From Notolepis coatsorum (taxonomy: Eukaryota; Chordata; Actinopteri; Aulopiformes; Paralepididae), in NCBI GenBank assembly GCA_963971535.1, contig OZ020587.1:162972491-163036490 (forward strand): a stretch of 64,000 bases of DNA, read 5' to 3'. Shown piece by piece: positions 14,872 through 48,080 of this stretch. The first letter of the stretch is position 1. Each line of letters opens with the position of its first letter. Position numbers and translations under genes: made by a program. The notes beneath the pieces are model-generated. The model was not told where the DNA came from, did not search any database, and was given only the letters and a program-made list of their open reading frames with translations.

Positions 14872-14897
14872 TGGTTGTCCTCTTGCAGTGACCGGCC

Positions 14898-20895: not shown

Positions 20896-20916
20896 GTTCT
20901 GTATCGTTAGTGGCTT

Positions 20917-21085
20917 AGCTTGGCATCGCCTTCTGCACTATCTCGCGTACGTGCACGCGTACTGAATAAACCACAAATGTACCTCTAATACCAGTATTAG
21001 TCTGACCACACCCCTCATCAGCTTACCTTCATAAGCAGGTGTGTGGTCACCTGCTCTCCTCCTTCTCGCTTTCACCACAAGGAAG
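20917..21085 (+). repeat. Left inverted terminal repeat, copy A
   Basis: Begins GCTTGGCATCGCC and ends CACCACAAGGAAG. Its reverse complement is at 29021-29187 with few differences. It contains the nearly self-complementary CGCGTACGTGCACGCGTAC and the TAATACCAGTATTAG palindrome. Confidence 0.9.
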
Positions 21086-21119
21086 AGGTGCCTCGGTAGA
21101 TCCCCACACTTGACACCAT

Positions 21120-23889
21120 GATGGAAGAAATTGGATTAGGAACAGCTTGGGAAACAAGGATACGTTGACATCATATCTTTATTTTCTCTCTCACTATTTT
21201 CGAGAAAATACGGCGATATTGTCTTCGTACTGGAGTGTCTAGAAGATGATGATCATTCTACAAACCCTCCACCGGTTTTCGTATTGGGAGCACGCCGCTG
21301 CATGCTTCTCAACTGCAGTTCCTTGCTGTGTTTGTTGGGGTGAAACCTGTCAGGCCACAGCTGAACTGTCGGACATGCCGCTGTTGTGAGGAGCGGTGCG
21401 TTCCAGGTTGGGTGAGTAGTGTTTGCTGGCGGGCTCCACTTGTCTGTTAGTGCTATGGGGGCTACTAGACAAAGTTTATGGAAACCGGCCCCAGGCTAGG
21501 GTCCTTTGTTTAGCCGTCTAGGCGACAGAAGGCCTTGGTCTGGCGACCATTATAGTTTTAACTAGTGGGCCGCGACCATTGACACTGGTGATCCCTGTGT
21601 GTTCTGGACGAGTGGATTCTCTCTGTCACCGTGTTAAGACCCCATCTTTCATATCCAAATGAGAGTATTCCTTCACGAGGGGATATGTGCATGTAATGTG
21701 CGATAGCGGCAGATTCATGTTCAAAGTCAGCTATACAGGCCAGTTGGTACTGTGCTGATTCCGCCGGACGTGGTATTATCACCGTTGTGAAGCGGTGTTG
21801 ACGTCTTGTTTTCTCTTTTTTCTTAAAAAATGAGGAGGGTTCAGAACGGCGGCCTGTCTGGGTGAGTGTTATGTCATTGTTTACATGTTCATAGCTTACG
21901 GTTAGCCGGTCGGTGGCCTGGCGCGGGGTAGCTTGGCTTCTCGCGCGCCGCCGGGAGCTCGCTCCTGATCGCGTGCGTCGTAGATCGGCGTCTCGCGAGC
22001 GGAAGCAATAGCACCCGAACGGTTGGAGCAGCCGTTAGCTTGATGCTATTCTGTTGAACGTGCTTTGATTTTTAACATGTTTTACACTCTTGACCACGAC
22101 GTCATCCTTGACAGGGGATGTTCGTCGACCCTGCCTGAGCCTAGACGGGGATTGCGTCAACAAAGAGGACTGTAGCGACTGGTGGAGCGGCGACGCTGCC
22201 CGGATCGAACAACACGGGACGGCTGTGTTCTACGGTGGCTTGTGACTGCACTTCGCTGATCTGCGTTCCGGGCAGGTACGGGGTTGGCCAGACCCCATAA
22301 CACGTCTTCTGGTTTTACCTTGCTAAATGTATTGTGAATAACGGTGTTTTTTCCCAAAACGTGTGTTGTTGCAATGCATTTGAGATACGTTGCGGGTTGT
22401 GTGTGAGCTGTTTTTGTCACTGGCAGTTAGCTTCTCCGTGCAGGTCGTGATGTATTGATCTGGTTGTTGTGTGAGAAACATCATGGTGTTTATGTGTACC
22501 GTGTACTCACTACTAAGGCAACTAACCTATGAAGCTATGCTTGGTGACGAGTGAGTAAAAGAATGTTCTTTCTCAGACTGTAATGACAATGAACAGTGAG
22601 TTCACACATTAACAGGTTTTCCTGTTTTAACTGGCCGTATTGAGGGTAAAATAGGAGGATTGTGTTTCCCCCCCCGGTTCCCTGGGGACTTTATCACCTC
22701 CTATCAGACATGTTGTGCATTAATTGTGTCTTTTGTGTGGTAGGGATACGATGTAACTCTCAGCTTGATTGCTGAGGTTGTGCTAAATCTGCTGGAGAAA
22801 CTTATTTCCTAAAGGGAAATTGGTTTGGTTGCTGTCATGTGTGCTTAGCAAGGCCTGTGGTCGATACTAATCAAGAATGATGTATTCTCTCATTGTGAAA
22901 AAAACGGCGTTCCTCTGTTGAGTGTTTTTGCCATTTTTTGTAGGTGATGATGGGTTGTGTGTGTCATGTGACCTACAACTGGGTTGTACTGGCCACAGAA
23001 GCACATGTGTATGTTGGACCGGGGTTCTTAGAGCCCTCTCTATTCTGTGTTTTTCCTTAGTAAAAATCAGATAGCAGGTTAGCTCGTGCGCTGTGTGGAG
23101 CTGTGAAACGCTTCATAGAGCTGACTATGACTGTGTCATATTCTCTTTTTGTCGTTACGTCGTATCATGGGTGTGGGGTCGTAAAGGGGTGAACTGGTAA
23201 CCTTTCCTCTCCCCATTGTTCTGTCGGTCAGGGGTACACCCCCTGTCCTTCAAGGTTCCCGTCACGTGGCGGTTCGGCACGTTACGGGGGGGGGGGGGGG
23301 GGGGGGAGGGAGTTCCTGGTCCCACGGCCTGGTATATTGGGCGTGTGCACCGCAGGAATTCCCCCGCCATAGAGTACGTCACCGTGCGCGTCTCTGTTGG
23401 TAGGACTTCCGTGTGCTGTTCAGGTCCATGTGATGGATCTGTTTTCAGGGGGGGTGGTCAGGGCTCCTCCTCACCAAGCGCCTACTCAGGCCTTCTGTGA
23501 GTTCGGACTCCTTCTTCCATGTGAGGAAGCCTCCATCAGAGTACAGAGCCTTCCTCCTCAGATTGTCAAAGTGAGTGGACCCTCTAGAAGGGTCCTTTTC
23601 TATTGTATGTATATTCGATTCAATTCGTTTATTGAGTGTGTATGGGTTCGGTGCCTCTTCCCCGGAGGCCCTAAAACCAGTTTTTTACATGGCTCGAGGT
23701 GCAATATATTCTTTTCAATCTGTACAGCTCGCGTGGGAAGTCTCTCTGGGGATCCCCGTCTCTTTCCTATGGGAGGGTGGTGGGATGTAAAAATGTGAAC
23801 ATTTTTTACCCCGGCTGTGTAGACTGGGATACATACTGTTGATGCTTCCTTCTTTCTATTCCAGAAGTGTTGGAGTTAGGGAGTGTCAC
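21120..23889. other. Copy A internal region without a recognised gene
   Basis: About 2.8 kb of GT-rich sequence with no long reading frame. It does not match the gag-containing part of copy B. A run of about 20 G lies at 23286-23306. Short frames at 23155-23800 have no domain. It may be degenerate coding sequence or a regulatory leader. Confidence 0.4.
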
Positions 23890-24505
23890 ACCCCTCTTGT
23901 CGTTCCCCTGGGCGCCTTGGGGATTCAATGACAGGTCTAAATAGCCTGTTCATTGATGGGGGTGTGTCCCGACGCACGTATAGTGCTAGCTCGCTGTAAA
24001 CAGGCGATTGACTGGCACGCCTTAGTTGCTTGTGGTTGAAACAGCGTTTTTATAAAGCAACTGAGATGGGGGTTTTTCCTCTTCCGGCGACCACATCCCA
24101 TGACCTGGGTGGGTTGTCGACGGATTCTCGTTCATGTCTGGGGGATGATGACGGGATGGATCTGAACATATGTAGTGGGGTCTCACGCCCTTGGGGTGGG
24201 CCGCCAGGCGCGGTTCGTCCCGACGTCTGGGTGGCGCCTTCTTTTCATGTTAAGATCAACACGCATATCTGCCCTTCTCCTGGAGTAGGCATGTCGGCGT
24301 GGTTAGGGCACGGGACTGGTTCTGGTCACGCTGGTCCAGATCAGTTGAACCCGTTGTCCGCCGGGGATGCAGATCTGCTGTTCTGGTACCCTGAGGGACT
24401 TGGGCTTTTTTCAGGGGGAAAAATGCCAGGTCGGTCTGGGTGTCACAGGGTTAAGCGCTATGGAGACCCTGGTTGGGTATGTTTTTACTCAGCACTGTCG
24501 TCATG

Positions 24506-24625
24506 GCTTACAGCCATGCCATTCTGTACGCGCTCGATCTCGTCGGATCTCGGCCGCTACACAGGTTGGTCCTGGTTAGTACTTGGTTGGGAGACCGCCG
24601 GGGAATACCGGGTACGGTGTGCTTA
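24506..24625 (+). ncRNA. 5S rRNA-like segment, copy A no. 1
   Basis: 120 bases that align with vertebrate 5S rRNA nearly end to end: GCTTACAGCCATGCC start, GATCTCGTCGGATCTCGG, and CCTGGTTAGTACTTGG followed by TTGGGAGACCGCC and GGGAATACCGGGTAC. Box C of the internal pol III promoter is well kept, while the box A region (GCCGCTACACAGG) is altered. It is a diverged 5S-derived module inside a mobile element, not a normal 5S gene. Its counterpart in copy B is at 39833-39952, so it is an inherited part of the element. Confidence 0.85.
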
Positions 24626-25205
24626 GGGGCTGGTTCTCCATTATTTTTCGCTCCTCTCTCACGCATGGCGAAGAGGGGCCTGTGGGGGTGGTTTTTTGAC
24701 CTCCTCTGGTGACCCTGTGCTTCCCGTACCGCCAGGCCCGGTCCGAAGTGATGTTTGCGACCCGTAGGCCTGGGTTAACCCTTTTTGGAAACTGAAACAC
24801 TTGTACTGCGGTATAGCCGGTGTATACCCGCAGGTGTGTTTTGGAGTTTTTTCTTGAGGGGTTATAGGAACAACCACCGCATTGGGTAACACCGAGGTGG
24901 TTGATTCCCTGGTGTGTTGGAGCAGTGTCAACTCCCGGGTTCACCGGTTGAGGGTGCCCCTGCACGTTCATGACGTCTGCCAATCGTGTCAGCCTTCTCT
25001 GCCTCGACCCCTCTGGGTGGGGGTTGTTAAATGGAGGCTTGGTCATGCAACACCGCCAGCTTACGCTCCTTCCGCCGGGGCGGCTGTGTTCAGCTGTCCC
25101 CTCTGGCGCCTGTCTCGTCCGCAGTCTCCAGGCTAGGGTTAACAGCCTGTTGCCTGGTTTTTCCCCGGTGCGCTGCCTGCTTCCGTTGGTTAACCTTTTT
25201 TGTGT

Positions 25206-25226
25206 GCTTACGGCCATGCTGACTGC
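25206..25226 (+). ncRNA. 5S rRNA 5'-end fragment
   Basis: GCTTACGGCCATGC resembles the first bases of 5S rRNA and then diverges. In copy B the homologous place reads TTACGACCATGC. It could be a truncated third 5S module or chance. Confidence 0.4.
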
Positions 25227-25284
25227 CTATTCTGCAGGGTCAGTGTGCCAGGCGGTGTACTATTGGGGGGACGGGGCCCGCTCG

Positions 25285-25387
25285 GCTTACGGCCATACCG
25301 ACCTGAACACGCCCGGTCTCGTCCGATCTCGGAAGCTGGGCAGGTTCTGGCCTGGTTGGTTCCGCCTGGGAATACCAGGTGCAGTAA
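25285..25387 (+). ncRNA. 5S rRNA-like segment, copy A no. 2
   Basis: The first 75 bases closely follow vertebrate 5S rRNA (GCTTACGGCCATACC, CTGAACACGCCCGG, TCTCGGAAGCT). About 17 bases of box C are then missing, and CCGCCTGGGAATACC and GTGCAGTAA complete the 3' end. Copy B lacks the whole segment: its sequence runs CCCGCTCGG directly into CTGAGGGGCC. Conservation is higher at the 5' end than in module 1, suggesting a separate, later acquisition. Confidence 0.85.
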
Positions 25388-25871
25388 CTGAGGGGCCTTT
25401 GTCCGAATACGCTGGCGATGTGGGGGGCGGGGCACTACGTGCCCACCTGGTGGGGTCTTGATGCTGGCATCATGGACTTCTCCGGGCCCCCATTCCAGGG
25501 AGTCCAGTCCTTTTGGTGGGTCTGGGTCTTCCTTCGTGCTCCGCTGCTACGGCCTTGCCACGGGGTTGGGTTTGCCCTTGACCCCGTGATTCTGGGGGCA
25601 GTAACGAGGTTGTTCCTCCGTTCGTTCCCGGGTGGCATGCGGGTTGTGCGTGTGTGTAGTCGTGGGGTCAAGCCACGGTCTGCTCACCCTGTGCGTTGAG
25701 TTGCTTGAGTGCCTCTTCGCACGGTCGGGTCCGTCGCCCTCCCGTGACGTCCCTAATAGGGGGGCTACCCTCCATTAGGGGGGGTCGGGGGGGCTCGGCC
25801 CTCCCTGTTCTGATGGTTTTGGGGGGCTGTCAGCGGGGTGTATTTGTCAGCCAAGTGGCTCCGCTTGGCCT

Positions 25872-25901
25872 CCCTTGTGCAGAAGGCGATGCCAAGCTAA
25901 G
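25872..25901. repeat. Internal complementary region, left half (copy A)
   Basis: GCAGAAGGCGATGCCAAGC followed by TAAGCCAC is the reverse complement of the left outer end (20907-20935). In DIRS elements this region templates restoration of the element ends. The L2 LINE begins immediately after it. Confidence 0.85.
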
Positions 25902-28900
25902 CCACACTGTCACAGTACAGGGAGGCTTATGGAATTGTCAATCAGCAGTCAAGAAAGCTGACTTCATTACTGCCTACGCCCATAGTCTAAATCTGCAGCT
26001 CCTGGCTCTAACTGAGACCTGGATAACCCCCAATAACTCGTCAACACCTGCAGCATTATCTACAAACTATAACTTCACTCACACACCTCGACCCTCCAGA
26101 CGGGGTGGAGGCACTGGCCTCATGACATCTCCTTCATGGGCTACAAACCTAACGCAACTCCCAGAACTGTCACTCTCCTCCCTCGAATATCATGCAGTAT
26201 CTGTCTCTAATCCTTTCAATCTCACCATTGTTACACTCTATCGCCCTCCAGGTCCCCTCGATCACTTCACAGATGAGCTGGACATGCTTCTAAGCTCCTT
26301 ACCGGAAGATGGTACCCCGCTCCTTCTATTGGGCGACTTCAACCTGCCTGACTCATCTCAGTCGGTCCCAGTGGTCTCCCTCCTACAACAATTTGACCTG
26401 ACTCCCACTGCCATGCCTCCCACCCACAAAGCAGGCAACTCCTTGGATCTCATATTTTCCCGTAACTCCAGCATCATTAACACCACGGTAACTCCCCTAC
26501 ATGTATCTGACCATTCCTTCATATCCTTCTCACTAACTCTCATGCTTAACCGAAAAGTCTTCACCCCAACTCAAACCGTCTCACTCAGACGCAACCTGCC
26601 CTCCCTATCTCCCTCCACCCTCTCCTCTGACATAATATCCGCTCTACCTTTGAGTGACACCTTCTCTGCTCTCCCCACAGAGATGGCAACCTCCACCCTC
26701 CTCTCAGCCCTTGCAACCTCCTTCGACAAGCTCTGTCCCCTCGTTGAGAAACCTGCCCGCCGTTCCCCACCCAGTCCATGGCTGACGGATGCAGTGAGAG
26801 AACAAAGACAGGTCCTGAGAGCGGCTGAGAGGAAGTATAGAAAGTCACGCCTCACTGCTGACATCGACACATATCACAACCTCTTGTTAACATTCTCCAA
26901 AACCATTACTAATGCCAAAGCTTCTTTCTTTCACCATAGGATCGAGGCCTCTGCCAAGAATCTTCGCAAACTGCATGCTACCATGTCCTCCCTCCTCACT
27001 CCCCCCCCACCTCCTCCTCCCTCATCTTTTTCTGCCGAAGACTTTGCGATCTTCTTTGAGGAAAAAGTGGAGAACATCCGCAGCTCCTTCTCCCAACCCC
27101 CACCCATTCCAAACGCTGAATCGAGAACCTCATCCTTCACTCTGTCATCTTTCTCTCCCATTACAGAAGCCGAGACCCTGACACTGGTAACGTCGAACCG
27201 TCCGACTACATGCCAGCTGGACCAGCTACCCTCCCCACTCCTCCAGACCATAGCACCGGACATCCTCCCATTCCTAACTGCAACCATCAACTCCTCACTC
27301 AACTCGGGGGTGGTCCCCACCTCCCTAAAACAAGCCAGAGTCACGCCCCTCATAAAAAAACCAACCCTGAACCCCACCGTCATAGCCAACTATCGCCCTG
27401 TCTCTCTTCTCTCCTTCCTTTCTAAAACACTTGAACGTGCTGTATCCAACCAACTTACTGCTTATCTCTTACAGAATGACCTCCTAGACCCCAATCAGTC
27501 TGGCTTCCGGACTGGCCACTCCACAGAAACGGCCCTCATTGCGGTCACAGAGGCACTTCACTTAGCAAAAGCGAAAGGCCTCTCCTCTGTCCTGATTCTC
27601 CTAGATCTATCTGCAGCCTTCGACACAGTCAACCATCAGATCCTCCTCGCGGCCCTCGCAGGAATGGGAGTGGCTGGATCTGCGCTGACATGGCTGACAT
27701 CATACCTCAATGACCGCTCCTACCAAGTGTCATGGAGAGGGACTCTGTCGGCCACCCGCCCCCTCCGGACGGGTGTCCCCCAGGGCTCGGTCCTAGGACC
27801 CCTTCTCTTCTCCCTCTACACTAAATCACTGGGTAACATTATCACATCTCATGGCTTCTCATATCATTGTTATGCCGATGATACTCAACTCTTCCTCTCC
27901 TTCCCTCCCTCAGATATCCACGTCTCTGAGCGGATCTCGGCCTGTCTGTCCGACATCTCCGCCTGGATGACGACCAACCACCTCAAACTGAACCTAAGCA
28001 AAACAGAATTGCTCCACCTGCCGGCCAAATCCTCCCCCCTGACCGACCTCTCCATCACAGTCGAGAATGCAGCTGTGACCGCGTCGCCGACCGCCAAGAA
28101 CCTTGGTGTTGTCCTCGACGACCAGTTGAACTTCTCTGCTCACATCGCAGCGACAACCAGAACCTGCAGATTCCTCCTGAGCAACGTCAGAAGGATACGC
28201 CCCTTCCTGACAAAAGAAGCCACCCAACTCCTCGTCCAATCAACAGTCATCTCCCGCCTCGACTACTGCAACGCACTGCTAGCTGGCCTCCCGGCCACTG
28301 CCACCAAGCCTCTTCAACTCATTCAAAATGCAGCGGCCCGCCTGATCTCAAACCTACCGAAGTCAGCCCATGTCACCCCACTTCTTAGGGACCTGCACTG
28401 GCTCCCCATTGCTGCACGTATCCGCTTCAAGGCCCTCGACCTAGCATACCGTGCGGCAAAGGGAACCGCTCCCGCCTACCTCCGGTCAATGGTCTCTAAC
28501 TACACACCCTCAAGACCCCTACGCTCTGCGTCTTCTGGCCGCCTCAGATCTACTCCTATCCAAGCTCCCGGAGGGTCATCAAAGAGAAGCCGCCTATTCT
28601 CAGTCCTTGCCCCACAATGGTGGAATGAACTACCCATCCCAGTTAGGACAGCCGAATCCCGTCCAATCTTTCGCCGTCGACTAAAGACTCACTTCTTCAA
28701 CCATTATCTGAAATGATAAAAAAAAAAAAAAAAAAAAAATCTAACCCGACTAACCTTAATGTCATGCACTTGTCCTAATAAACTAACCTACACTGTAACA
28801 CGCAACACTTTGATGAACATTGTTACTCAGCTGATAGAGTTATACCCTTCTTGCTGTCTTGTCGCACAGAACTTGTAAGTCGCTTTGGATAAAAGCGTCA

Positions 28901-28930
28901 GCTAAATGACTAAATGTAAATGTAAATGTA
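25902..28930 (+). mobile_element. L2 LINE, slightly 5'-truncated
   Basis: A non-LTR retrotransposon of about 3.03 kb inserted in the internal complementary region of copy A. It contains one long ORF (endonuclease plus reverse transcriptase) and a 3' UTR with an A run at 28718-28739. The ending, CTTTGGATAAAAGCGTCAGC then AAATGACTAAATGTAAATG, defines the L2 tail found at 4.3, 7.1, 18.9, 20.1 and 29.6 kb. It is the only copy here with a complete RT. Confidence 0.9.
25922..28716 (+). CDS. L2 ORF2: endonuclease-reverse transcriptase
   Basis: An uninterrupted frame that also extends upstream to 25696 for about 75 codons, but that extension is DIRS-like sequence and not part of the LINE protein. 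In the extended numbering, apurinic-type endonuclease motifs are TETW (106-109), GDFN (213-216) and SDH (271-273). A Pro run follows the linker at about 436-442. The reverse transcriptase has LDLSAAFDTVNH (636-647) and the catalytic YADD (726-729), and ends with LHWLPIAARIRFK-type C-terminal blocks. The enzyme nicks target DNA and primes cDNA synthesis there. The first endonuclease strand is missing through 5' truncation, so nicking may be impaired. The frame is otherwise intact, indicating a young copy. Confidence 0.93.
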
Positions 28931-28995
28931 ACGATACAGAACGTTAGGTTATGACTATAACCAAGTTCTGTTAGTTAGGGGCGATGCTTGGCATC
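28931..28995. repeat. Internal complementary region, right half (copy A)
   Basis: CGATACAGAAC completes the left-end complement. GTTAGGTTATGACTATAACC onward is the reverse complement of the right outer end (29188-29234). The two parts share the GTT at 28943-28945, matching the GTT at both element boundaries. Confidence 0.85.
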
Positions 28996-29020
28996 GGACG
29001 CCGCTGCAGCCCTTGTCCTC

Positions 29021-29187
29021 ACCTTGTGGTGAAAGCTTGGGAAGGAGGAGAGCAGGTGACCACACACCTGCTTATGAAGGTAAGCTGATGAGGGGTGTGG
29101 TCAGACTAATACTGGTATTAGAGGTACATTTGTGGTTTATTCAGTACGCGTGCACGTACGCGAGATAGTGCAGAAGGCGATGCCAAG
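29021..29187 (-). repeat. Right inverted terminal repeat, copy A
   Basis: Reverse complement of 20917-21085, ending CGATGCCAAGC. The outer extension (29188-29234) is specific to the right end and complementary to 28943-28990. Confidence 0.9.
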
Positions 29188-29234
29188 CATCGCCCCTAAC
29201 TAACAGAACTTGGTTATAGTCATAACCTAACGTT

Positions 29235-29604
29235 TTGTATAGTCGATACACTTTTGTATTAATGAACAACATTGACTACTATGTCCAATATAGAAATATA
29301 GAAAATAATTTTACCCTAATCTGTGATGTCACACAAATGCACAGCTGCTCCGTAGAGAATGAATAGCGTGTCAGTATCCAGTATTGGTTTCCTGAAGGAT
29401 CTACTGTCTTGTCTGGAAGTGATAGCGCTATAAAGCCATTCATCAGTCAAATAGCTCCAGGCTGTATGACCTCACAGATTTGTGTTGGTTCTCCGATTTC
29501 TAGATTTGTGACGAACTTGTTCATGCTCTCAAATACAGTCTTAAGTGACCTTTAAGTCAACAATTTAATTCTTAAAATGAGTGATATGCCCATTTAAGTC
29601 TATT
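29235..29604. other. No feature recognised
   Basis: AT-rich sequence flanking copy A. No gene or repeat structure seen. Confidence 0.35.
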
Positions 29605-29825
29605 ACAGGTCAGTTTCATTCATCAATAAATGAATTACTATTTAAAAGACACGTTACACTGCTATAGCTATGCTATTGTTATTACATTTACATTTAGTCA
29701 TTTAGCTGACGCTTTTATCCAAAGTGACTTACTGTACAAGTTGTGTACAACAAGTCAGCAGGAAGGAAGGGTACAACTCTGGCAGCTAAGGGTCAGCAAG
29801 ATTGTTCATCAAAGAGTGTGATGTG
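29605..29825 (-). mobile_element. L2-type LINE 3' tail
   Basis: Reversed L2 tail (ACATTTACATTTAGTCATTT, AACAAGTCAGCAGGAAGG). The flank upstream shares CACTGCTATAGCTATG with 4365-4385, so this locus and 4321-4493 are copies of one larger repeat. Confidence 0.75.
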
Positions 29826-30170
29826 CATAGTAGTATAGACATATTAGCATGATAGGTACTGTAGTAGTATAAGTATAGTAGCATAGTAGTATAGACATAT
29901 TAGCATGATAGGTAGTAGTATAAGTATAGTAGTATAGACATATTAGCACAATAGGTAGTAGTATAAGTATAGTAGTATAGACATATTAGCATGATAGATA
30001 GTAGTATAAGTATAGTAGTATAGACATATTAGCACAATAGGTAGTAGTATAAGTATAGTACCATATCGACATATTAGCATGATAGGTAGGTATAAGAATA
30101 GTAGTATAGACATTATTAGCATGATAGATAGTAGTGTAGTAGCATAATAGTAAGTAAGGAACATATTAGT
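29826..30170. repeat. Minisatellite derived from L2 3' UTR, second array
   Basis: About eight degenerate units of TAGTATAGACATATTAGC / ATGATAGGTAGTAG / TATAAGTATAGTAG, the same unit as 4494-5010 and in the same position next to a reversed L2 tail. Confidence 0.85.
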
Positions 30171-30780
30171 AAAAAGGCAGTAAGAAGTTAAATTCTTTCG
30201 GATATTGTTTGAATTACATAATTATGGTTTGTTTTACCTAAAAGAGTGTTATCAACAAGTGCATTGGATATTATAAAACATATAACTATATCAGCAATTG
30301 GTAACTTTTCTGAGAAATGAAATTAATGTTGACAAATGAAAAGGGACTAAAATATCATCTGTGTTTTTAACAACAGCTGACTATTGGCTCGGCCGGTATT
30401 CAGCTGATTTATGCATTGGGCCTAAATGACAAACAAAGAAATGTTAAACACACTGTTGGTGTGCGGCTGCCCAGGTGTTTTGTGAAATAAAACTGACTTA
30501 CTGCTGACTGACAAGATGGCCACCGTTACACTCTAAATGATTATATTGGCCTCCCCCGTATATACTTTCCAAGGAATGACCCTAGTATTACACACAGCCA
30601 ACCGAGTAATGTCGTCTACTCGAGGAATTACCCTAGTATTACACACAGCCAACAGAGTACTTGTCATCTACTTTCACTAAACACCTCCACGCTATATGAT
30701 TGATTGATTATGTTATTTTCCTGTCACACAAAGTGCACAACCCTGACACCAAACATACTGTTGCAGTGTTCCATTATTAC
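30171..30780. other. Mostly unremarkable; one 50-bp duplication
   Basis: No gene. At 30573-30672 a unit of about 50 bp (GGAATGACCCTAGTATTACA, CACAGCCAAC) occurs twice in tandem. Confidence 0.5.
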
Positions 30781-30870
30781 ATAAGATAAGATAAGATATT
30801 CCTTTATTGATCCCCTTGGGGAAATGCACGCATCATAGCAGCATGGGGGGGGGGGGGGGGGGGGGAGGGG
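30781..30870 (-). mobile_element. LINE 3' tail with (AAGAT)n
   Basis: AAGAT repeats, ATTCCTTTATTGATCCCCTT and CATCATAGCAGCATGGGG match the segment at 5401-5480. A G run of about 20 follows at 30846-30866. Confidence 0.55.
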
Positions 30871-31740: not shown

Positions 31741-31845
31741 TTTCGTTCAAAAACATTATTTTAACAAATACCAAAGAGATTAGACCACATCGTATGTATT
31801 GATAGGAACTCCTACTAACTATATCAAAAGACATAAAGACTCAAC

Positions 31846-32900
31846 ATGGGGGGTAAGGATGAGAATAAGGGTAGAAAGAAAAAAGAAGCAGCGAATACAA
31901 CGGCGACGATTGATACACGTTCCAAGAAAATAACAGGCGGCGCGCCGGCAGATCCGCTGTTGACAACCCCCGATGGGAATATAATGGAGAATATACCGGG
32001 TACATCGGCGACTGGCTCCGAGATGGAGACAATAGAGGACAACACAACGGGAACGACAGGAAAAAGTAGCGTGAAGGACAAAGCAGAGGATATTGAGAAG
32101 ATAATAGCCAACAAACCCGTCGGCCCCATCACTGCAGCTACAATATCAACTGGCACTGGCAGTGTAATTACACAACCCGACTTTAACTCCCTGACTAGCC
32201 TGATCAAGGATCTGATTAATGAACAGATGGTAGCTTTCAAATTACACGTCGCACACATCGATACTAAATTCTAACACATCGATGCTAAATTAGAAGAAGT
32301 TATGAAAGCGGTCGCTGTACAGTCCGAGCGAATCACGACAGTGGAGAATACGGTGACAGAAATTACACGGGCAGTCAAAGAGAACGAGAACATCATCAAC
32401 GTTGGTTTGACAGAGGTAACAAAGGAGATAAAAAGGGTGGAAGAGGCATGCCGGAGGAAAATACAAGAAGTTAAAGATGAAGCGATGGAGAGGCTACTCG
32501 AAACCCAACGCTACTACAAGCGAAATAACATCCGCATTGTAGGACTTGATGAAGCAGTCAATTGCGCAGACGACAAGTTTCCAACAGTGCTATCAGAGAT
32601 TTTGGGTAACAACTTTCTAAACACAGTGCTGATAGTGGACCAAGCTTACAGAATCGGTACTCGGGATCAAAGAAGCAACGGGCCAAGAGTCATAATTGTT
32701 ACTCTGCGCAAGACAGCAATAAGAGATGACATCATCAAAATTGCTCGCAACCAAAGGGGAAAGCTGAAACATGGTGAAAACCCAATATTTATCTACGAGG
32801 ATCTTTGCAAAGAGGCCATCGCTCGGCGTCTCCCCTACAAGGAGGTGATGCAGAAATTGTTCAAGTCTGGCCTCAGACCAAGGCTAGGCTACATTTTAGA
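31846..32900 (+). pseudogene. L1 ORF1 protein, interrupted and truncated
   Basis: The ATG at 31846 opens a basic, Thr-rich N-terminus. An in-frame TAA at 32272-32274 falls beside a small duplication (CACATCGAT...AAATT twice). The frame then continues with a heptad-rich coiled coil (32302-32500) and an RNA-recognition-like core beginning RNNIRIVGL, with GPRVIIVTLRK further on. This is the trimeric RNA chaperone layout of L1 ORF1. The C-terminal domain is cut after about 32885 (RPRLGY), where sequence jumps to ORF2 endonuclease. A second copy with an intact C-terminus is at 58257-58652. Confidence 0.85.
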
Positions 32901-33175
32901 GGAAGACATAGACGTTAGCGGATAACACATATCATAATATTAGTCACTCTTCTTTTGGTACGAGAACTTGAGGTGTAGCCATAGTCGTCAGACGTAAGTT
33001 AAATATTGAATTAAAGGGGGTATGGTCGGATGCGGATGGGCGTATAACTATAGCTAAGATTGTACACAATAACAGGAAAATAGCGTTGGCAGCGGTATAT
33101 GCCCCAAATTTGTACGAAGAGGGTTTCTTCACTACACTAACCGATGAAATGTTAAACCATCCCGATTACTCATTT
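32901..33175 (+). pseudogene. L1 ORF2 endonuclease fragment fused to ORF1
   Basis: The translation ILEEDIDV and the following NISHSSFGTR-equivalent bases match the endonuclease at 60880-61000 (ILEKDIDTLADNTYHNISH). All ORF2 sequence before that point and the ORF1 end are missing, so an internal deletion joined the two genes. A stop (TAA, 32923-32925) and point changes disrupt it. The Rex1-like insert follows. Confidence 0.75.
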
Positions 33176-34121
33176 CAAGTCAAGTCAAGTCAAGAGTTTT
33201 AATTGTCACGGCATACAGGTATACAATGAAATACGGGTGGTCTTGCCCGCAACGATGTGCAATACAGTGGTACAACATATAATAGAATCAAAAATGAAAA
33301 AAATAACATTGTGCAGTAAACAGGTAACAGGTAACATGGAGTGACATCTCGGTATCTGTACATAGTTATTTACAGAGCATATGGGACATGCTAGTTAGCT
33401 TTGGTAGTGCAATACACTGTTCCTGTTATTCTAATTTAAAGTTTCCTTTCCTTTGGCCATAAGTGTGCGTGTGTGCGACATGAGTGTGTGCCCGCTCATG
33501 TTAAAGTGTTAAGTGGCTGCTCGTGTGTGAGCGTGCACAGCGTGCGTGTCGTGTGTGTGTTCATGTGTGCTTGTGTGTGGATAGTTCAATGTTCTGAGCA
33601 CTCAATGTTCATTGTTCATGGCTCTGATGGCCTGGGGGAAGAAGCTGAGCCTAAGCCGCTCTGTCCTAGTAGCTGGGGTTCGCAGGCGTCTGCCTGACCT
33701 CAGCAGCTGAAACAGGCTGTTATTGGGGTGGTGAGGGTCTTTCATTATCCTGCAGGCTCTGGATTTGCACCTCTTGTTGTATAGAACCTGCAGGGGGGGT
33801 AGTGCAATACCCGTGGTACGCTCGGCTGAGCGCACCACTCTCTGTAGGGCCTTCTTGTCCTGTGCCGTGCTGTTTCCATACCAGGCAGTGATGTTTCCGG
33901 TCAGGATGCTCTCTACAGCTCCTGAGTAGAAGGACTGGAGTATCTTCCCAGATACTCTGAACTTCCTTAACTGTCTCAGGTGGTAGAGGCGCTGTTTCGC
34001 CTTCTTTACTACTGTGTCTATGTGTGTTGACCATGTCAGGTCCTCTGAGATGTGGACCCCCAGGTACTTAAAGCTGCTCACCCTGTCTACGGTGGCCCCG
34101 TTAATCATCAGTGGTGTGCGG
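33176..34121 (-). mobile_element. Rex1-like LINE, 5'-truncated
   Basis: The minus-strand frame from about 34118 to 33602 encodes a non-LTR RT C-terminus: INGATVDRVSSFKYLGVHIS, a VKKAKQRLYHLRQLRKFRV block, and AWYGNSTAQDKKALQRVV. It ends SFFPQAIRAMNNEH. The 3' UTR ends at a (TCAAG)n tail, 33176-33195 on the plus strand. The protein closely resembles the LINE at 50.4-53.6 kb, so they are one jockey-superfamily family; Rex1 is a tentative name. The catalytic box is missing by truncation. Confidence 0.85.
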
Positions 34122-36648
34122 ATTTTAATGCCATTTGGAATCCAAGGATGGACAAATCTTACCTCGCCTTTTCCAGCGAACAAAAAAATTCATCTAAAGC
34201 ATTAAAGGATTGGTCAAAGATTACAGGTGTAAATGATTTATGGCGTTCACTTAATCCCACGACCCGAAAGTACTCTGGTCGATCGGCGAGACATAACACA
34301 TTATCCAGAATTGATTATGTCTTTGCATCCCCGAGACTATTTGATAAATATGAAGTGGAAATGATACCCAATCAGATCACTGTTATTTACTCCTAAAAGC
34401 AACATTTGGTATACTATCTTCCCGGGCCCCAAGATGGCGTTTTAATTCGATGCTGCTTAATAACAAGGAATTCATTACACAACTCAAAGAAGCTCTCATA
34501 GTATTCCTACGGGAGAATGCAAACTCGGTGCAAGACCCCAGAATAATATGGATGTCGGTAAAGGGTATGATCAAGGATTTCACTGATAGATTTTCCTCCA
34601 TAATGCGCAAAAATCAATGCACAAAACTGTCTGAACTGGAAACGCTTTACTCAACGTTATTTAATTCTTTAAAATACAACAACTCAACTAGACTAGAAAA
34701 TCAAGTTAACGTACTAAAAACAGAGATCAATGCCATATACAGACAACAATCGGAAATGCAAATACGCAGCACAAGACAACAGCAGTACTCCCAAGGTTCT
34801 AAACCTAGTCACCTATTAGCCATGCGATTAAGAATTAATGCAAAATTTGCAGATATAATTACCATTAGAGCACAACAAGTACTTGTAACAGACCCCAAAA
34901 CAATAAATGATACATTCAAAGAATTCTACTCCGACTTATATAAATCAGAAACGACCTTCGATCAATACAAAATGGACACATATCTTAATCAAATTATTCT
35001 CCCTAAACTTTCAGAGGATGACGCTAAACAGTTAGAAACACCGATCACACTAGAGGAACTCAAGAAGGCCATATCCGAAATGCAAAATGGTAAGGCTCCT
35101 GGAAGAGATGGTATCCCATCAGAAATGTACCTTTCTTGTTGGGACATAATTGGACCCTTATTACTAAATATGATCTTATACTCAGTCAAGGAGGGGAGCT
35201 TCCATAAAAACGACAATATTGCACTCATTTCAGTCCTTCTCAAAAAAGACAAAGACCCCACCGAGTGCGGTAGTTACAGACCCTTAAGCCTCCTCGGAAC
35301 CGATGTCAAACTGTACTCTAAGGTATTAGCCATCAGATTACAAAAGCATATGACGTCTTTAGTTCATCCGGACCAAACTGGCTTCATAAGAGGTCGCCTG
35401 ATCACTGATAACATAAGACGAATACTGCACGTACTAGATGCAGACAAGGACGACACCATACCTAAGGCGATGCTGTCCCTGGATGCTATGAAAGCCTTTG
35501 ACAGGCTGGAATGGTCATATCTATGGGCAGTATTAGAAAGGATGGGGTTAGGAAAAGGATTCATTGATATGATTAAAGTATTATACAAAGACCCATCGGC
35601 CATGATTACAACAGGTACATTCATCTCCGAAATCTTTCCGGTATCACGCTCAGCCAGACAGGGTTGCCCTCTTAGTCCCGGACTATTCAATCATTAGAGC
35701 CTTTAGCACAATATATAAGACAATCCCAATCCATAGAACCAATCGTAATCAAGGGCACACAACATAAAATTAGTTTATAAGCGGACGACGTAATATTGTT
35801 CATGCAAAGCCCCAACACCACATTGCCTCATCTACTCAAGTTGATTGAGAACTTTGGTGATTTATCGGGATTTAAAATAAATTGGCCGAAGTCGGCTTTC
35901 CTTCCACTTAACACCCATGCAAAAAAAGATACAACCCTCCCAGGTGAGATACCTATGGTAAAACATTTTAGATGCTTGGGTGTGGAAATATTTCCCACCA
36001 TAAGACAAACGGTGAAGCACAATTACACAAAAATACAGAACAAAATCAAAGACGACCTGGACAGGTGGGCAAAACTTAAAAACTCAGTACAGGCAAGGGT
36101 ATCAATAGTTAAGATGGATGTACTACCTAGAATCAACTTCATCAGTTCAATGCTACCGTTACCCCCTCCAGAGGGTTACTGGAAAAGATTACACTCCTCC
36201 ACATACAAATTTATTTGGAATAACAAACCACCACGTATAAAAAGATCCACCGCACAGAGAAATAAAGCAGACGGTGGCATGGCAGTTCCAGATTTTTTCC
36301 AATATTTTAAGGCGTACACATTAAGACCATTGACAATATGGTTAGATCCCCAAGCATTAGTATCCTGGAGAAAATTGGAAGAAAACATAGTAGCCCCACA
36401 TAGACTGAAGGACATAGCACACACTAAACTGCCAATCAAGCACTGTGAGCGGAAATTTGGCCCCATAATTACCCATGCGATCCGGATATGGCGTGAAACA
36501 CAAAAAAAATATCCTAACCCACAAAAATGGCACAATCACACTCCCTTATTCAATAACAATGCACTCTTAATTGAAAAACGTCCTATAAGATTCCCTATAT
36601 GGGAAGAGCAAGGCATACACTCATTAGGGGATGTTTTTAACAACCAGG
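34122..36648 (+). pseudogene. L1 ORF2: endonuclease end and reverse transcriptase, broken
   Basis: The sequence resumes with DFNAIWNP and SRIDYVF, the end of the L1 endonuclease. A linker and RT follow with [51 protein letters not shown] and [11 protein letters not shown] frameshift lies between 35690 and 35770. The catalytic YADD box is destroyed: the Tyr codon is TAA at 35778-35780, followed by intact Ala-Asp-Asp. The thumb and C-terminal region read on to 36648, where copy B interrupts it after DVFNNQG. Confidence 0.9.
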
Positions 36649-36670
36649 GTTCTGTTCCATTAGGGGCTCT

Positions 36671-36838
36671 GCTTGGCATCACACTGCACTATCTCGCGTA
36701 CGTGCACGCGCACTGAATAAATTCCACAAATGTACCTTTAATACCAGTATTAGTCTGACCACACCCCTCATCAGCTTACCTTCATAAGCAGGTGTGTGGT
36801 CACATGCTCTCCTCCTTCTCGCTTTCACCACAAGGAAG
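36671..36838 (+). repeat. Left inverted terminal repeat, copy B
   Basis: GCTTGGCATCACACTGCAC through CACCACAAGGAAG. Its reverse complement is at 41178-41343, and it is homologous to 20917-21085. The outer 22 bases (36649-36670) are left-specific. Confidence 0.92.
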
Positions 36839-36954
36839 TGCCTCGGTAGTACCCCACTTGACGTGTTGTTAGTTGAAAAGAGTTGTGACGGGTTTACATT
36901 GTGCTTAATTTTTTCTTCTCTCACATCTGTTGTACAAGAAAAAGTTGGGTCATA

Positions 36955-38619
36955 ATGTATTCCGCGGAGAGTAGACCCGCTAGACCTACTCTTCACCAGC
37001 GGTTCTCCATTCCCGCCTCCGTCGTGCGCCTCAGTGCTGGGCTGTTGCCACTTTTGTGGTTGCCGACCCAGCCCGGGAGACTGCCTGTGGATAGTTTGCT
37101 TCACCGAAGAGCCGAGGGTTCGGTGCCGTCGCTCCGGCGATGGCCTGATCTCGACTCTGGTTCTGGGGAATCGCCTGTTGGTGAACGGGGGGTTGTCTTG
37201 GAGCCAGAGGATTTGCGATGCAAACTTTTCGCGTCTGCCCGTTCACGTCGCAAGATGGTAGCATGCAGGCGCGAACGGCCTGGGTTTGGGGAACTGCTGG
37301 AGACCAGCGAAGATGCGTCCGGCTCTGGATTTCCAATGGAGACTGAGGACTTCATGGACGAGGCGGACGGGTTTTTGTATGAGGGCCCCGTGGAGGAGAG
37401 TATCCCTCCTCAGGAGACCCCGGAGGGGGGGGGAATGGCTCCATGGGGCGCCCTGTTCGAGGATGTCGAGGAACCACCTTGGCCTCATCAGCAGGATGCC
37501 CTACTGTCGGCCACATCAGACTGTGGCTCCTTGACCAGTCGCAGCCTGCTGTATGTGAGGGATGCGGGGTCGGTGGAGGAAGGTTCGCAGGGGGAACTGC
37601 GGGCCTTGTTTCCCGAGCTCATGGCGGTAGCCGCCGCCGCAAACGGCGTGCCGCTGCCGCTGCCATTGCCTGCACCTGTCCCTGATGACCTCATAGGCCA
37701 TCCCTGGCAGCGTCCCCCAGTGAGAGGGGTGGACGTTGTCTACCCATTTTTCCCATCGATGGGGGCCTATGTTCGTCGGGGTCAGGCGGTGTCCAACATC
37801 ATGGGACTAACTCCCGCCTACGTACCAGTTACGCGGGTGTCGGGGTTGGTCAAAGGTATGGAGGAGGGCGTGCCTCGGCTTGACAGTCCGATGGCCGCGC
37901 TCCTCTGTCCGGATATGGTGTGGGAACCCCTATGCAAGCCGGTCCTCCAGGGGAAATCGGCTAGGCGATTGGCTTATTGGGGTGACCAGTCATTCATCGC
38001 TGGTACACAATCGCTAGCTGCAGCATCTAACATCGCCCACCTGGCTAGATTTGTATCGGGGATAATGACGGGCGGCACGGATCTGAACGAGGTGAAATGC
38101 GATCAGATCACCCAGGCTGCGGGAGCTGTCCTGCACCTTTCCCAGGTGCTGGCCATAGCCATGGGGAAAGTGCGCGCCCAGGCCACCCTGGGCCAGCGTC
38201 ACCTTTGGCTGGAGCAGGCCCGTGTGCCAGAGAAGAAGAGAGCTCCTCTTCTGACGGCCGCCCTCTCCGACGCTGGCCTATTCGGGAAGGCCCTGCGGTT
38301 GATGACCTCAACATGCAGAGAGATGGCAGAGGAGAGGTCCATTCTCCAACCCCATTTTTCGCCTCCCGTCCTTGCCGGTGGAGTCAGAAGGCTTCCGCGA
38401 CGTCGAGCTGTCTCCGTCGCCGCTACCACTGCCTCCGCCGCCGCTGCTGGCCCTGCCAAGAGGGCCAGGGGACGAAATGGCGCTTCTGCCACCGCCGGCC
38501 CATCCACGACCGGAGGAGACGGTAGGGAACGTCGTGTCCAGCAGACTGTAACCTACCGTCCCTCCGGGGCTCCTCGGGGTGGCAAGACTCGAGCGGCGCG
38601 AGGTGGCAGACGCCGTTGA
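36955..38619 (+). CDS. Gag-like protein of DIRS-like element
   Basis: 554 codons from the ATG at 36955. The frame is open from 36901, but no earlier ATG exists. The N-terminal third is acidic and Pro/Glu-rich with no motif I recognise. Residues of about 330-470 form a helical region with QRHLWLEQARVPEKKRAPLL and AALSDAGLFGKALRLM. This RHLWL...DAGLFG pattern resembles the conserved part of Gag-like proteins of DIRS elements. The C-terminus is strongly basic (RRLPRRR, KRARGRNG, GGKTRAARGGRRR), suiting nucleic-acid binding. No zinc knuckle. The likely role is packaging element RNA. It follows the left ITR by about 115 bases. No stop or frameshift is present, which is notable in an element lacking its enzymes. 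Confidence 0.65.
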   Translation: MYSAESRPARPTLHQRFSIPASVVRLSAGLLPLLWLPTQPGRLPVDSLLHRRAEGSVPSLRRWPDLDSGSGESPVGERGVVLEPEDLRCKLFASARSRRKMVACRRERPGFGELLETSEDASGSGFPMETEDFMDEADGFLYEGPVEESIPPQETPEGGGMAPWGALFEDVEEPPWPHQQDALLSATSDCGSLTSRSLLYVRDAGSVEEGSQGELRALFPELMAVAAAANGVPLPLPLPAPVPDDLIGHPWQRPPVRGVDVVYPFFPSMGAYVRRGQAVSNIMGLTPAYVPVTRVSGLVKGMEEGVPRLDSPMAALLCPDMVWEPLCKPVLQGKSARRLAYWGDQSFIAGTQSLAAASNIAHLARFVSGIMTGGTDLNEVKCDQITQAAGAVLHLSQVLAIAMGKVRAQATLGQRHLWLEQARVPEKKRAPLLTAALSDAGLFGKALRLMTSTCREMAEERSILQPHFSPPVLAGGVRRLPRRRAVSVAATTASAAAAGPAKRARGRNGASATAGPSTTGGDGRERRVQQTVTYRPSGAPRGGKTRAARGGRRR

Positions 38620-39214
38620 GTGACTTTTTCCCCTCTGTGTCCCATCTCCTCTACACCCTCCCCGGCCCCTCTATGATTTTGTGCCTTACCGACTCCTATT
38701 ATATGACAGGAGCCGGCAGGTTTCCCCGCCCGTTGTAGCGGTGTTGCTATGGCGACGCCTTCCATGAGTTGGTGTCTTAAAGGTGTCGAGTTTTAGGGCG
38801 TAGGGCTCACAGTTCTGCTGCGCCCGATTTATGTGTCAACTTGAGTCGGTTGGTCACGTGACTCACAGTTGGCATATCTTTTTCATGACTATGAACTCAT
38901 GTGGGAAGGTGTTTCTGGGAGGGTCTGGTCTTACACTCTGATTAAAAAGAGTGACTGGATTAAAATCATGTGAAAACAGGTTTTTTACTCCCAGCTGTGC
39001 AGTTGGGTCATACGGGTGATGCTTTTTCTTTATTTTTATAAAGAGTTGGATGTGTCTATATGGATTGGAAATGAGGGTCCCTGATGGAAACAAGACTAAC
39101 GTCTTTCTCAGGTCTGCCTCCCCTTAACCAATTGTGTGTATTGCCGTACTGGGTTGTACCCTTTCTGCAGTCTGTTGGGTAAAGTTTTTCATTCATTCAT
39201 TCATGGAGTTGATT
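38620..39214. other. Copy B spacer after gag-like gene
   Basis: No reading frame with a domain. The stretch near 38980-39060 (TTTTTTACTCCCAGCTGTG) resembles copy A near 23800, marking where homology between copies begins. Confidence 0.45.
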
Positions 39215-41056
39215 GCATCTCGCCCCTCTTGTCGTTCCCCTGGGCGTCTTGGGGATTCAATAAGGTGGTCTAAACGGCCTATTGTTGATGTGGGTATGTC
39301 AAAACGCACACATAGTGCTAGCTCAGGATGTTCTTTTGGGGCATTGGCTGACTGGCGCGCCTTGATTGCTTGGGGTTGAAACAGCGTTTTTATGAAGCAA
39401 TTGGGATGGGGGTTTTTCCTCTTCCGACACCCTGTGTGGTTGTCGATGGGTTCCCGTTCATGTCAGGGGATGATAACGGAATGTGTCTGGACATATGGGG
39501 AAGGGTCTCACGCCCTAGGGGTGGGCCACCGGGCGCGGTTCGTACCGAAACGTCTGGGTGGCGCCTTCTTTTTATGTTGGGATCAACACGCATATCTGCC
39601 CCTTCTCCTGGGGTTGGCAGGTCGGTGTGATTAGGGCACGGGACTGGTTCTGGTCGCGCTGGTCCAGATCAGTTACACCCGTTGTCCGCCGGGGATGCAG
39701 ATCTGCTGTTCTGGTACCCTGAGGGACTTGGGTTTTTTTCGGGGGGAAAAAATGCTAGGTCGGTCCGGGTGTCACAGGGTTGAGCGTTATGGAACCCTTG
39801 TTGGGTGCGTTGTATTCTGCACTGTCGTAATGGCTTACGGCCATGCCAACCTGTACGCGCCCGATCTCGTCGGATCTCGGCCGCTGTGCAGGTTGGTCTT
39901 GGTTGGTACTTGGTTGGGTGACCTCCTGGGAATACCGAGTGCGGGGTGTTGGGGCTGGTCTTCCATTTTTTACGCTCTTCTCTTGCGCTTGGCGCAGAGG
40001 GGCCTGTTGGGGTGGTTTTAGCCTCCTCGGGGGACCCTGTGCTCCCCGTATCACCGGGCCCGGTCCGGGGTAATGTTTCGTTGACCCGTAGGCCCGGGAT
40101 AGCCCTGTTGGAAACCAGAACGCGGGCTGCGGCAGTGCCGCAGGTGTGTTTTTGGGGTTTCTTTCCTGAGGGGTTATGGGACCAACCATTGCATAGGGTA
40201 ATGCCTGGGTGGTTGGTTCTCTGGTGTGTTGCTGCAGTGTCAACTCCCGGTTTCTCCGGTTGAGGGTGCCCCTGCACGTTCATGACGTCTGCCGATCGTA
40301 TCAGCCTTCTCTGTGGAGGCTTGGTTATGCGACAACGCCAGCATACGCCCCTTCCGCCGGGGCGGCTGTGTTCAGCCGTCCTTTCTGGCGCCTGTCTCGT
40401 CCGCAGTCTCCAGGCTTGGGTTGACAGCCTGTTGCCTGGTCTTTTTTCCCAGTGCACTGCCTGCTTCCGTTGGTTAACTCTTGTGTGTTACGACCATGCT
40501 GTCTGCCTGTTGCAGGGCCTGTGTTCCAGGCAGTGTACTGTTGGGGAGGACAGGGCCCGCTCGGCTGAGGGGCCTTTGTCTGAATACGCTGGCGATGTGG
40601 GGGGCGGGGTCACTAGGTGCCCACCTGGTGGGGTCTTGATGCTGGCATCATGGACTTCTCCGGGCCCCCATTCCAGGGAGTCCAGTCCTTTTGGTGGGTC
40701 TGGGTCTTCCTTCGCGCTCCGCTGCTACGGCCTTGCCACGGGGTTGGGTTTGCCCTTGATCCCGTGATTCTGGGGGCAGTAACGAGGTTGTTTCCTACGT
40801 TCGTTCCCGGGTGGCATGCGGGTTGTGCGTGGGTGTAGTCGTGGGGTCAAGCCACGGTCTGCTCACCCTGTGCGTTGAGTTGCTTGAGTGCCTCTTCGCG
40901 CGGTCGGGTCCGTCGCCCTCTCGGTAAACCTCTAATAGGGAGGGTGCCCTCCATTAGGGGGGGTCGGGGGGGCTCGGCCCTCCCTGTTCTGTTGGTTGTG
41001 GGGGGCCTTCAGCGGGGTGTATTTGTCAGCCAGCGGCTCCGCTTGGCCTCCCTTTG
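39215..41056. other. Region shared by copies A and B, no clear gene
   Basis: Homologous to 23890-25870 at clearly visible identity (for example CTTGTCGTTCCCCTGGGCG, GGGATGGGGGTTTTTCCTCT). Frames are open for 60-260 codons on both strands, but none shows a domain, and gaps between copies are not multiples of three. I read it as non-coding element body holding a 5S-like module. Confidence 0.55.
39833..39952 (+). ncRNA. 5S rRNA-like segment, copy B
   Basis: Colinear with module 1 of copy A: GCTTACGGCCATGCC, CGCCCGATCTCGTCGGATC, GGTTGGTACTTGG and GGGAATACCGAGTGC. The 5' half is closer to real 5S than copy A's version, while box C has changes (TGGGTGACCTCC). It was present in the common ancestor of both element copies. 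Confidence 0.85.
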
Positions 41057-41147
41057 TGCAGTGTGATGCCAAGCAGAGCCCCTAATGGAACAGAACGTTA
41101 GGTTATGACTATAACCAAGTTCTGTTAATTAGGGGTGACGCTTGGCA
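41057..41147. repeat. Internal complementary region, copy B
   Basis: 41057-41096 is the reverse complement of the left outer end (36649-36688), including AGAGCCCCTAATGGAACAG. 41097-41147 is the reverse complement of the right outer end (about 41337-41389), beginning GTTAGGTTATGACTATAACC. The halves meet at GTT. This is the intact counterpart of the split region in copy A. Confidence 0.92.
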
Positions 41148-41177
41148 TCAGACGGCCGCTGCAGCCCTTGACCTCAC

Positions 41178-41343
41178 CTTGTGGTGAAAGCTTGGGAAGG
41201 AGGAGAGCAGGTGACCACACACCTGCTTATGAAGGTAAGCTGATGAGGGGTGTGGTCAGACTAATACTGGTATTAAAGGTACATTTGTGGAATTTATTCA
41301 GTGCGCGTGCACGCACGCGAGATAGTGCAGTGTGATGCCAAGC
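41178..41343 (-). repeat. Right inverted terminal repeat, copy B
   Basis: Reverse complement of 36671-36838, ending GATGCCAAGC. The right-specific end (41344-41386) reads GTCACCCCTAATTAACAG and onward to CCTAAC before the boundary GTT. Confidence 0.92.
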
Positions 41344-41386
41344 GTCACCCCTAATTAACAGAACTTGGTTATAGTCATAACCTAAC

Positions 41387-47987: not shown

Positions 47988-48080
47988 AGAGACACGTACA
48001 AGACCTGGTGGAGCTGGGTGTCCTGGTAGAGAGCTGCAGTCCGTGGGCGTCACCAGCCGTGATCGTCATAAAGAAAGTCT

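Follow-up and report, generated by a model that had tools for sequence, protein, structure and literature searches.

5S modules and the elements that carry them

The window analysed here, a stretch of 64,000 nucleotides (nt) from the Notolepis coatsorum genome (contig OZ020587.1, positions 162,972,491 to 163,036,490), contains two copies, A and B, of a DIRS-type retrotransposon with sequences derived from the host 5S ribosomal RNA (5S rRNA) in their 3' parts. Rfam cmscan returns exactly three matches above the gathering score in the 64 kb, all of them to 5S_rRNA (RF00001, gathering cut-off 38 bits), on the + strand and spanning model positions 1-120. Two of these, designated module 1 (A1 and B1), start at homologous positions (24506 and 39833) within the alignable 3' region of both elements, in agreement with an earlier note on this DNA that had described 5S-like segments running nearly end to end at the same place in both copies. 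The third match, module 2 (A2), is an additional block at 25285-25390 in copy A, and the matching site in copy B, near 40564, is empty. The same note had reported an extra 5S-like segment in copy A only; we confirm this, refine its limits and read it as an independent capture.

24506..24623, + strand: 5S module 1 of copy A (A1); RF00001 65.4 bits, 83% identical to host 5S
24644..24648, + strand: T5 run downstream of A1, a possible stop for RNA polymerase III (pol III)
25285..25390, + strand: 5S module 2 (A2), read as a separate later capture, with a 13-nt deletion in the window copy; RF00001 52.3 bits; empty and full-length forms occur elsewhere
39833..39950, + strand: 5S module 1 of copy B (B1); RF00001 63.1 bits, 81% identical to host 5S
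39966..39971, + strand: T6 run downstream of B1

For comparison with the host, the best 47 of 112,738 first-look 5S candidates in the 3.42-Gb source genome were scored, and the 30 that were fetched represent five close variants. Identity to these variants is 81-83% for A1, 80-81% for B1 and 89-91% for A2, the last with a 13-nt gap. A single reference host 5S, which differs by one base from locus L001 (nt 112) and by one from the commonest fetched form (nt 43), underlies the identity, box, fold, vestige, changes-per-site and pair-retention comparisons. Local alignment to host 5S scores 72-73, against a best of 14-15 in 1,000 first-order Markov shuffles, so that the resemblance is not the product of chance that the earlier note had considered. 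The highest-scoring 150-nt window free of modules reaches 14 (60-nt steps).

The carriers are DIRS-like, as had been proposed, with inverted terminal repeats (ITRs), internal complementary regions (ICRs) and an AAC/GTT junction. Their limits were set by the GTT ends.

20896..29234, + strand: copy A, DIRS-type element with GTT at both ends, recognised from its ends, circular junction and open reading frames (ORFs)
20896..21065, + strand: left ITR of copy A, with GTT end; arm 20906-21065 is 98% complementary to 29041-29200
25877..25905, + strand: left ICR of copy A (inverse of the left end), first part, read by eye; split by a long interspersed element (LINE) and resumed at 28929-28942
25906..28928, + strand: L2-type LINE within copy A; Pfam reverse transcriptase (RT) and endonuclease, UnaL2 54.5 bits (cut-off 55)
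28940..28999, + strand: circular junction AAC and right ICR of copy A
29041..29234, + strand: right ITR and right extension of copy A
36649..41389, + strand: copy B, of DIRS type, inserted in a Tx1-like L1; it has a single long ORF, which is gag-like
36649..36818, + strand: left ITR of copy B, arm 96% complementary
36955..38619, + strand: ORF of 554 aa whose C-terminus is basic; only its position is gag-like; no Pfam match and no credible PDB match
41094..41154, + strand: circular junction AAC and right ICR of copy B
41196..41389, + strand: right ITR and right extension of copy B

The ITR arms are 160 nt long and 98% (copy A) or 96% (copy B) complementary, and the AAC at 28940 and 41094 links the inverses of the left and right ends, the left parts being read by eye. 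In copy A, the L2 LINE sits in the ICR. It is missing from 28 of the 29 other fetched A copies, the remaining one (L054) stopping short of the site, and the left ICR is unbroken in the A copies L034, L046 and L060. When the flanks of copy B are joined at one GTT, the Tx1 frame is open again and matches a relative in L081 that has no interruption, indicating that copy B integrated at GTT without target duplication. The Tx1-like L1 frame broken by copy B encodes a reverse transcriptase (34354-36648 and 41390-41640), and the B copy of L081 likewise adjoins or sits within a Tx1-like L1. Without inserts, the elements measure about 4.7-5.3 kb. The same A/T difference occurs at 25883 in the ICR and at 29174 in the right terminal repeat, each site in 23 of 29 aligned A copies, as expected if one region is copied from the other during replication. 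Compared with the window copy, two A-type copies, L053 and L060, have rearrangements or internal deletions.

Outside the LINE, the longest ORF of copy A has at most 216 aa. The 554-aa ORF of copy B is intact also in L081 and in L140, which is the more distant of the two (L140:552-2219), with ratios of nonsynonymous to synonymous change (dN/dS) of 0.94 to L081 (dS 0.018) and 0.31 to L140 (dS 0.287); the value between subfamilies indicates that the gag-like protein was under selection. Searches of Pfam and PDB place this ORF in no recognised family, a gag protein search gave no match at E 0.001 among 7,993 scored candidates, and its AlphaFold model is unusable (pLDDT 31). The seemingly non-autonomous element thus retains a gag-like ORF of its own with no recognised relative. 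Pfam detects no tyrosine recombinase (YR), RT, RNase H or methyltransferase (MT) in the long ORF of copy B and only the L2 LINE in the long frame of copy A; nor were YR or RT seen by eye in the other frames of copy A (at most 216 aa), in L081, in L082 or in 3 kb of L140. With neither recombinase nor reverse transcriptase found, copies A and B are read as non-autonomous, and the carriers appear to be non-autonomous DIRS-type elements, not autonomous DIRS1-like ones. A search for an autonomous partner via PF00589 gave 18 genome matches; the two fetched neighbourhoods (L123, and L124 as compared by BLAST and Rfam only) do not resemble the DIRS copies. L123:4616-5875 is a 419-aa tyrosine-recombinase frame, which we take from its appearance to be Crypton-like; a frame of 419 aa is present at 7 of the 18 places and was perhaps recently active. 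Two 3-kb upstream stretches yielded no partner either, one holding the gag-like ORF and 3' sequence (L140) and the other a BEL/Pao-like frame, recognised by eye (L141).

Two captures of 5S rRNA

Module 1 is widespread in the genome and sits in the same setting wherever it was sampled. With the copy A module and flanks as query, the best 40 of 219 candidates are all 100% identical over 671 nt, and with those of copy B the best 40 of 3,579 are all 99-100% identical; both are best-first lists, and the A copies were picked by identity across A1, hence they show no variation in A1. A module signature that differs from host 5S at three bases is matched 9,101 times at up to two mismatches, against none for the reversed control. 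A second signature also totals 9,101, with other places listed, which we take as coincidence. From these, 40 loci were sampled, 20 out of roughly 100 listed places along one contig and 20 from the second signature, picked so as to cover other subtypes. All 40 lie in DIRS 3' flanks and are at least 93% identical to the nearest of the A, B or C types over at least 403 nt. Type C, found in L082 next to a B copy, is about 80% identical to A and B and carries its module (C1) at the same place. The modules of L082 and L081 score 86.2 and 59.3 bits in Rfam. Since all five modules scored pass the cut-off and the signature has 9,101 matches, Rfam-based pipelines could call thousands of these copies 5S genes.

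Nine differences from host 5S are common to A1, B1 and C1, and A1 and B1 have further differences in common, including the loss of nt 63. Judged from the aligned copies, module 1 is host 5S sequence in sense orientation, acquired in one capture that predates the split of the A, B and C subfamilies. It lies in the 3' part of the element, in copy B past the gag-like ORF, and 1.4-1.6 kb before the right end.

A2 has a different history. It is carried by some members of subfamily A, about 0.8 kb downstream of module 1 and with the same orientation, and at every one of the nine sites shared by A1, B1 and C1 that it still spans it shows the host state, which argues that it is not a copy of module 1 but an independent and younger capture. 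Fifteen places were fetched, two of them outside an element. All seven A-type places, chosen as unlisted by the left-junction search, carry A2 (three nearly full length, three with the same large deletion and one with other small changes); it is absent from all five intermediate-type places and from the one readable C-type place. The filled site (L128-L130) contains mature 5S, starting at nt 1 and reaching about nt 116; L128 and L130 each show three changes from the host and L129 shows four, excluding nt 112, which varies among host genes. The target site is undisturbed in relatives and in B, and the trinucleotide GCT is common to the site and the 5S start. What was gained is bare 5S, with no body, A-rich tail or long target duplication; any overlap does not exceed a few nt. 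Matches to the left-junction pattern number 3,114 and include the 13-nt-deleted form of the window. The large-deletion form accounts for 717 copies and has the same span at every listed place, indicating that the deletion was amplified and showing how a module fares in this family when it can be dispensed with. Module 2 seems to be redundant and in the course of being lost. Its series of empty, nearly full and decayed sites displays capture in steps and bears on template switching during DIRS reverse transcription.

A third segment was considered as well:

25204..25268, + strand: weak candidate for the remnant of a further 5S module; in A and C its first 13 nt match exactly

It was set aside as too weak, its score being reached by 1 of 1,000 shuffles for A, 0 of 1,000 for C and 71 of 1,000 for B.

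In the mechanism that we propose, each capture would arise when the reverse transcriptase of the element switches from the genomic RNA onto 5S rRNA and then back. The nascent strand would extend to the 5S RNA 5' end before returning via the GCT microhomology, leaving neither tail nor long target duplication. The boundary at the mature 5S 5' end, the sense orientation, the absence of a tail or long duplication and the short GCT favour such a switch, by which, on the analogy of module 2, module 1 was probably captured too. At the DNA level, insertion of 5S gene DNA by repair would be another route.

A further possible source is a SINE3-type short interspersed element (SINE) that inserted into an ancestral DIRS element and brought along its 5S head. 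SINE3 elements are short and LINE-mobilised, with a 5S head and a tail. The carriers here are elements of several kilobases with 5S in their 3' part, and A2 has neither tail nor long target duplication. Comparison of A2 with its empty site shows that only 5S was gained, and module 1 likewise breaks off where the 5S does, the sequence beyond it being common to A, B and C, although no empty site of module 1 is known for comparison. Such an origin therefore strikes us as very improbable. It has been suggested by Kojima for Ajax and, in the passages of PMC10886601 on this question, is reported as speculation for Cassandra; SINE3 and other 5S-headed SINEs, as outlined in the same source, share with the present elements a 5S-derived module in a mobile element.

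Possible roles of module 1

We tentatively favour a compound reading, based on sequence comparison, in which 5S was captured by template switching and module 1 of subfamilies A and B acts as a 5S mimic at the RNA level. In this reading, module 1 would be kept in A and B as a structured domain of the element RNA, and, with a 5S-like fold, it could enlist 5S-binding proteins to aid nuclear export, stability or ribonucleoprotein (RNP) assembly. The proteins that bind 5S are RPL5/uL18, RPL11/uL5 and TFIIIA. Plant P5SM, a 5S mimic in TFIIIA pre-mRNA that is bound by ribosomal protein L5, is a splicing switch and not mobile; it is a precedent for the mechanism only, as a 5S-like RNA element within a longer transcript. 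Nearly as likely is that module 1 is a passive passenger, a template-switched 5S inherited by a few amplifying source copies and devoid of any role; an internal pol III promoter ranks after these two.

Several observations speak against a mere passenger. The window copies A and B and the C copy of L082 keep a nearly full-length module while their flanks gained and lost blocks. When sites were defined by two fixed flanks, both required to be exact irrespective of the module, 7,251 fell at 105-130 nt, 31 at 74-104 nt (several lengths) and none at 0-30 nt, lengths of 31-73 nt being left out; all of the roughly 100 places listed for the longest class are 5S-like in the letters shown. Hence, 31 of 7,282 counted sites are shortened and none is empty, whereas a single A2 deletion makes up 717 copies. 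Random absence of module 1 from family members, which the earlier note had thought of, is accordingly not seen in A and B. At 30 A-, B- and intermediate-type loci, no indel of at least 2 nt occurs in 3,570 module nt, versus 31 in 13,817 flank nt, scored against the nearest of the A, B or C-type copies (one locus, L122, being nearest to C).

Base pairing points in the same direction. More pairs survive than the host form would keep under random mutation: B1 retains 30 of 34 (P 0.007) and A1 29 of 34 (P 0.035), with P 0.005 for L085 and P 0.017 for L102; starting from the C-type module of L104, the values are P 0.015 for B1, 0.008 for L085, 0.034 for L102 and 0.077 for A1. At pair 68-107, the host and A1 have C-G, C1 has C-A and B1 has T-A. 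The kept pairs lend modest support to an RNA-level role in A and B.

A series of results weighs against the mimic. The flank-defined counts cover A-, B- and intermediate-type copies, and 7 of the 10 C-type loci have another left flank and escape them. Many of the flank indels are shared by descent, and the patterns used for finding loci favour an intact nt 8-36 or 31-54. Four of nine modules of the older C type contain indels of at least 2 nt (4 in 1,071 module nt), versus 20 in 4,166 nt of C-type flanks, 16 of which are in L109 alone, whose end aligns badly; the C-type module is as damage-prone as its flanks, or more so. This takes weight from the mimic and from the pol III promoter and adds it to the passenger. 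By parsimony over 53 rows, changes per site amount to 0.43-0.54 in the left flank, 0.55 in module nt 55-119, and 0.92 and 1.27 in the right flank, so module 1 changes no slower than the left flank, though slower than the right one (the value for nt 8-54 is biased by the choice of loci). In 20 young B copies, the module has 6.7 variable sites per 100 nt, versus 7.7 and 6.5 in the flanks. No excess of kept pairs is found in C1, L104 and L121 (P 0.21-0.27 versus host; 0.69 for L121 when starting from L104), and the P values of the pair tests are uncorrected, come from rows that share ancestry and depend on a host reference one base off the two nearest fetched forms. The minimum-energy fold predicted for A1 is not a 5S fold; the same method misses the host 5S fold too. 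The free decay of A2 and the unspared promoter boxes also suit a passenger.

The proposal of the earlier note that the module is built into the family has strong support in all 40 sampled sites and in the flank-defined counts; larger indels occur in C-type modules, and A2 is decaying. On the question of conservation beyond neutral expectation, which the note had posed as a check, pair retention and the absence of larger module indels in A and B speak in favour; copy variation and the rate, which resembles that of the left flank, do not. Constraint on module 1 judged from copy variation was rejected as unsupported, as the module varies like its flanks. C-type loci show more damage to the module than A or B: L105 carries an insertion, L106, L107 and L109 have lost 10-17 nt each, and L111 has lost 1 nt.

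The earlier note had also raised a pol III role. As in Cassandra, Ajax and SINE3, TFIIIA bound to boxes A, IE and C of the module would drive a transcript useful to the element. The box positions, which we assume to follow those of Xenopus 5S, are recognisable for all three boxes; nt 80-105, which contains box C, has the fewest changes per site of the later part (0.38), and a run of T4-T6 lies 15-20 nt 3' of module 1 in A, B and C. The boxes are not spared, however: they hold 3 of 12, 6 of 22 and 8 of 23 differences (the last two counts including the missing nt 63) against an expected share of 0.328, as by chance, and box A differs from the host in A1, B1 and C1. The module is internal, lies outside the terminal repeats and is followed by T-runs, which means that on a linear copy no full-length transcript can begin at the module. 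In Cassandra, mutations of the host promoter are mirrored by the element's promoters, according to PMC10853983, whereas the modules here differ from the host. Overall, we regard a pol III promoter as unlikely, and this part of the earlier suggestion finds no support in the pattern of substitutions or in the internal position.

The favoured mimic can be taken one step further. A working 5S mimic in the element RNA might draw on the 5S RNP pathway for export or particle assembly, and 5S rRNA itself might be part of the reverse-transcribing particle, acting perhaps as a helper or as a primer; the presence of 5S in the particle would account for at least two captures in the same orientation and region. 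We consider this extended form doubtful. One element with a kept and a decaying 5S module makes function testable. Two stretches adjoining the modules, 24286-24465 and 25410-25727, are more conserved (about 92-96% among A, B and C, 97-99% between A and B) and are possibly packaging or RNA-processing signals.

Related systems and other features of the window

Capture of 5S is already known for long terminal repeat (LTR) elements, SINEs and LINE-1 chimeras. New here would be the capture of a small RNA in the DIRS order, of whole 5S rather than its promoter only, and repeatedly; our searches found no other case. In the open-licence literature, Repbase being outside the search, we found no DIRS-type element with 5S, and PMC10138776 and PMC6387122 yielded nothing on such a case either.

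Among the closest parallels are terminal-repeat retrotransposons in miniature (TRIMs). Cassandra of plants is likewise a non-autonomous amplified retrotransposon with host-derived 5S; unlike in the present elements, its 5S lies in the LTRs as a promoter that mirrors host changes, as described in PMC10853983 and PMC10886601. The elements here have no LTRs, their 5S is internal, their boxes drift, and integration is of DIRS type (copy B). Ajax, found in two nemerteans (Kojima 2024), is an animal non-autonomous retrotransposon with 5S-derived sequence, but the passages of PMC10886601 on Ajax describe only the promoter part, located in LTRs, with 5-bp target duplications and no predicted 5S-like fold, whereas the elements here contain whole 5S and have no target duplication. 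They also depart from the Cassandra/Ajax group (TRIMp3) in that their terminal repeats are inverted, the 5S lies outside them and the boxes are not depleted of differences.

In chimeras of 5S and LINE-1, reverse transcription joins 5S rRNA to element cDNA, with 27 5S cases among 253; such chimeras are typically truncated, antisense, single events, as summarised in parts of PMC13174262. The modules here are sense-oriented and nearly full length, and through inheritance and amplification they number in the thousands. DIRS1-like elements, in the passages of PMC3266345 on their structure, share ITRs, two ICRs overlapping on 3 bp and a 3-bp target without duplication, but the known ones encode gag, YR and RT/RNase H/MT, whereas those described here have at most a gag-like ORF besides the 5S modules.

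The window also contains two Gypsy-like elements with long frames, delimited partly by eye, at 9080-16398 (- strand) and 45865-54544 (+ strand), the second of which holds a LINE-like endonuclease/RT insertion around 50500-52894. Outside the window, L082:2847-3024 forms a long palindrome with sub-threshold matches to small-RNA families on both strands.

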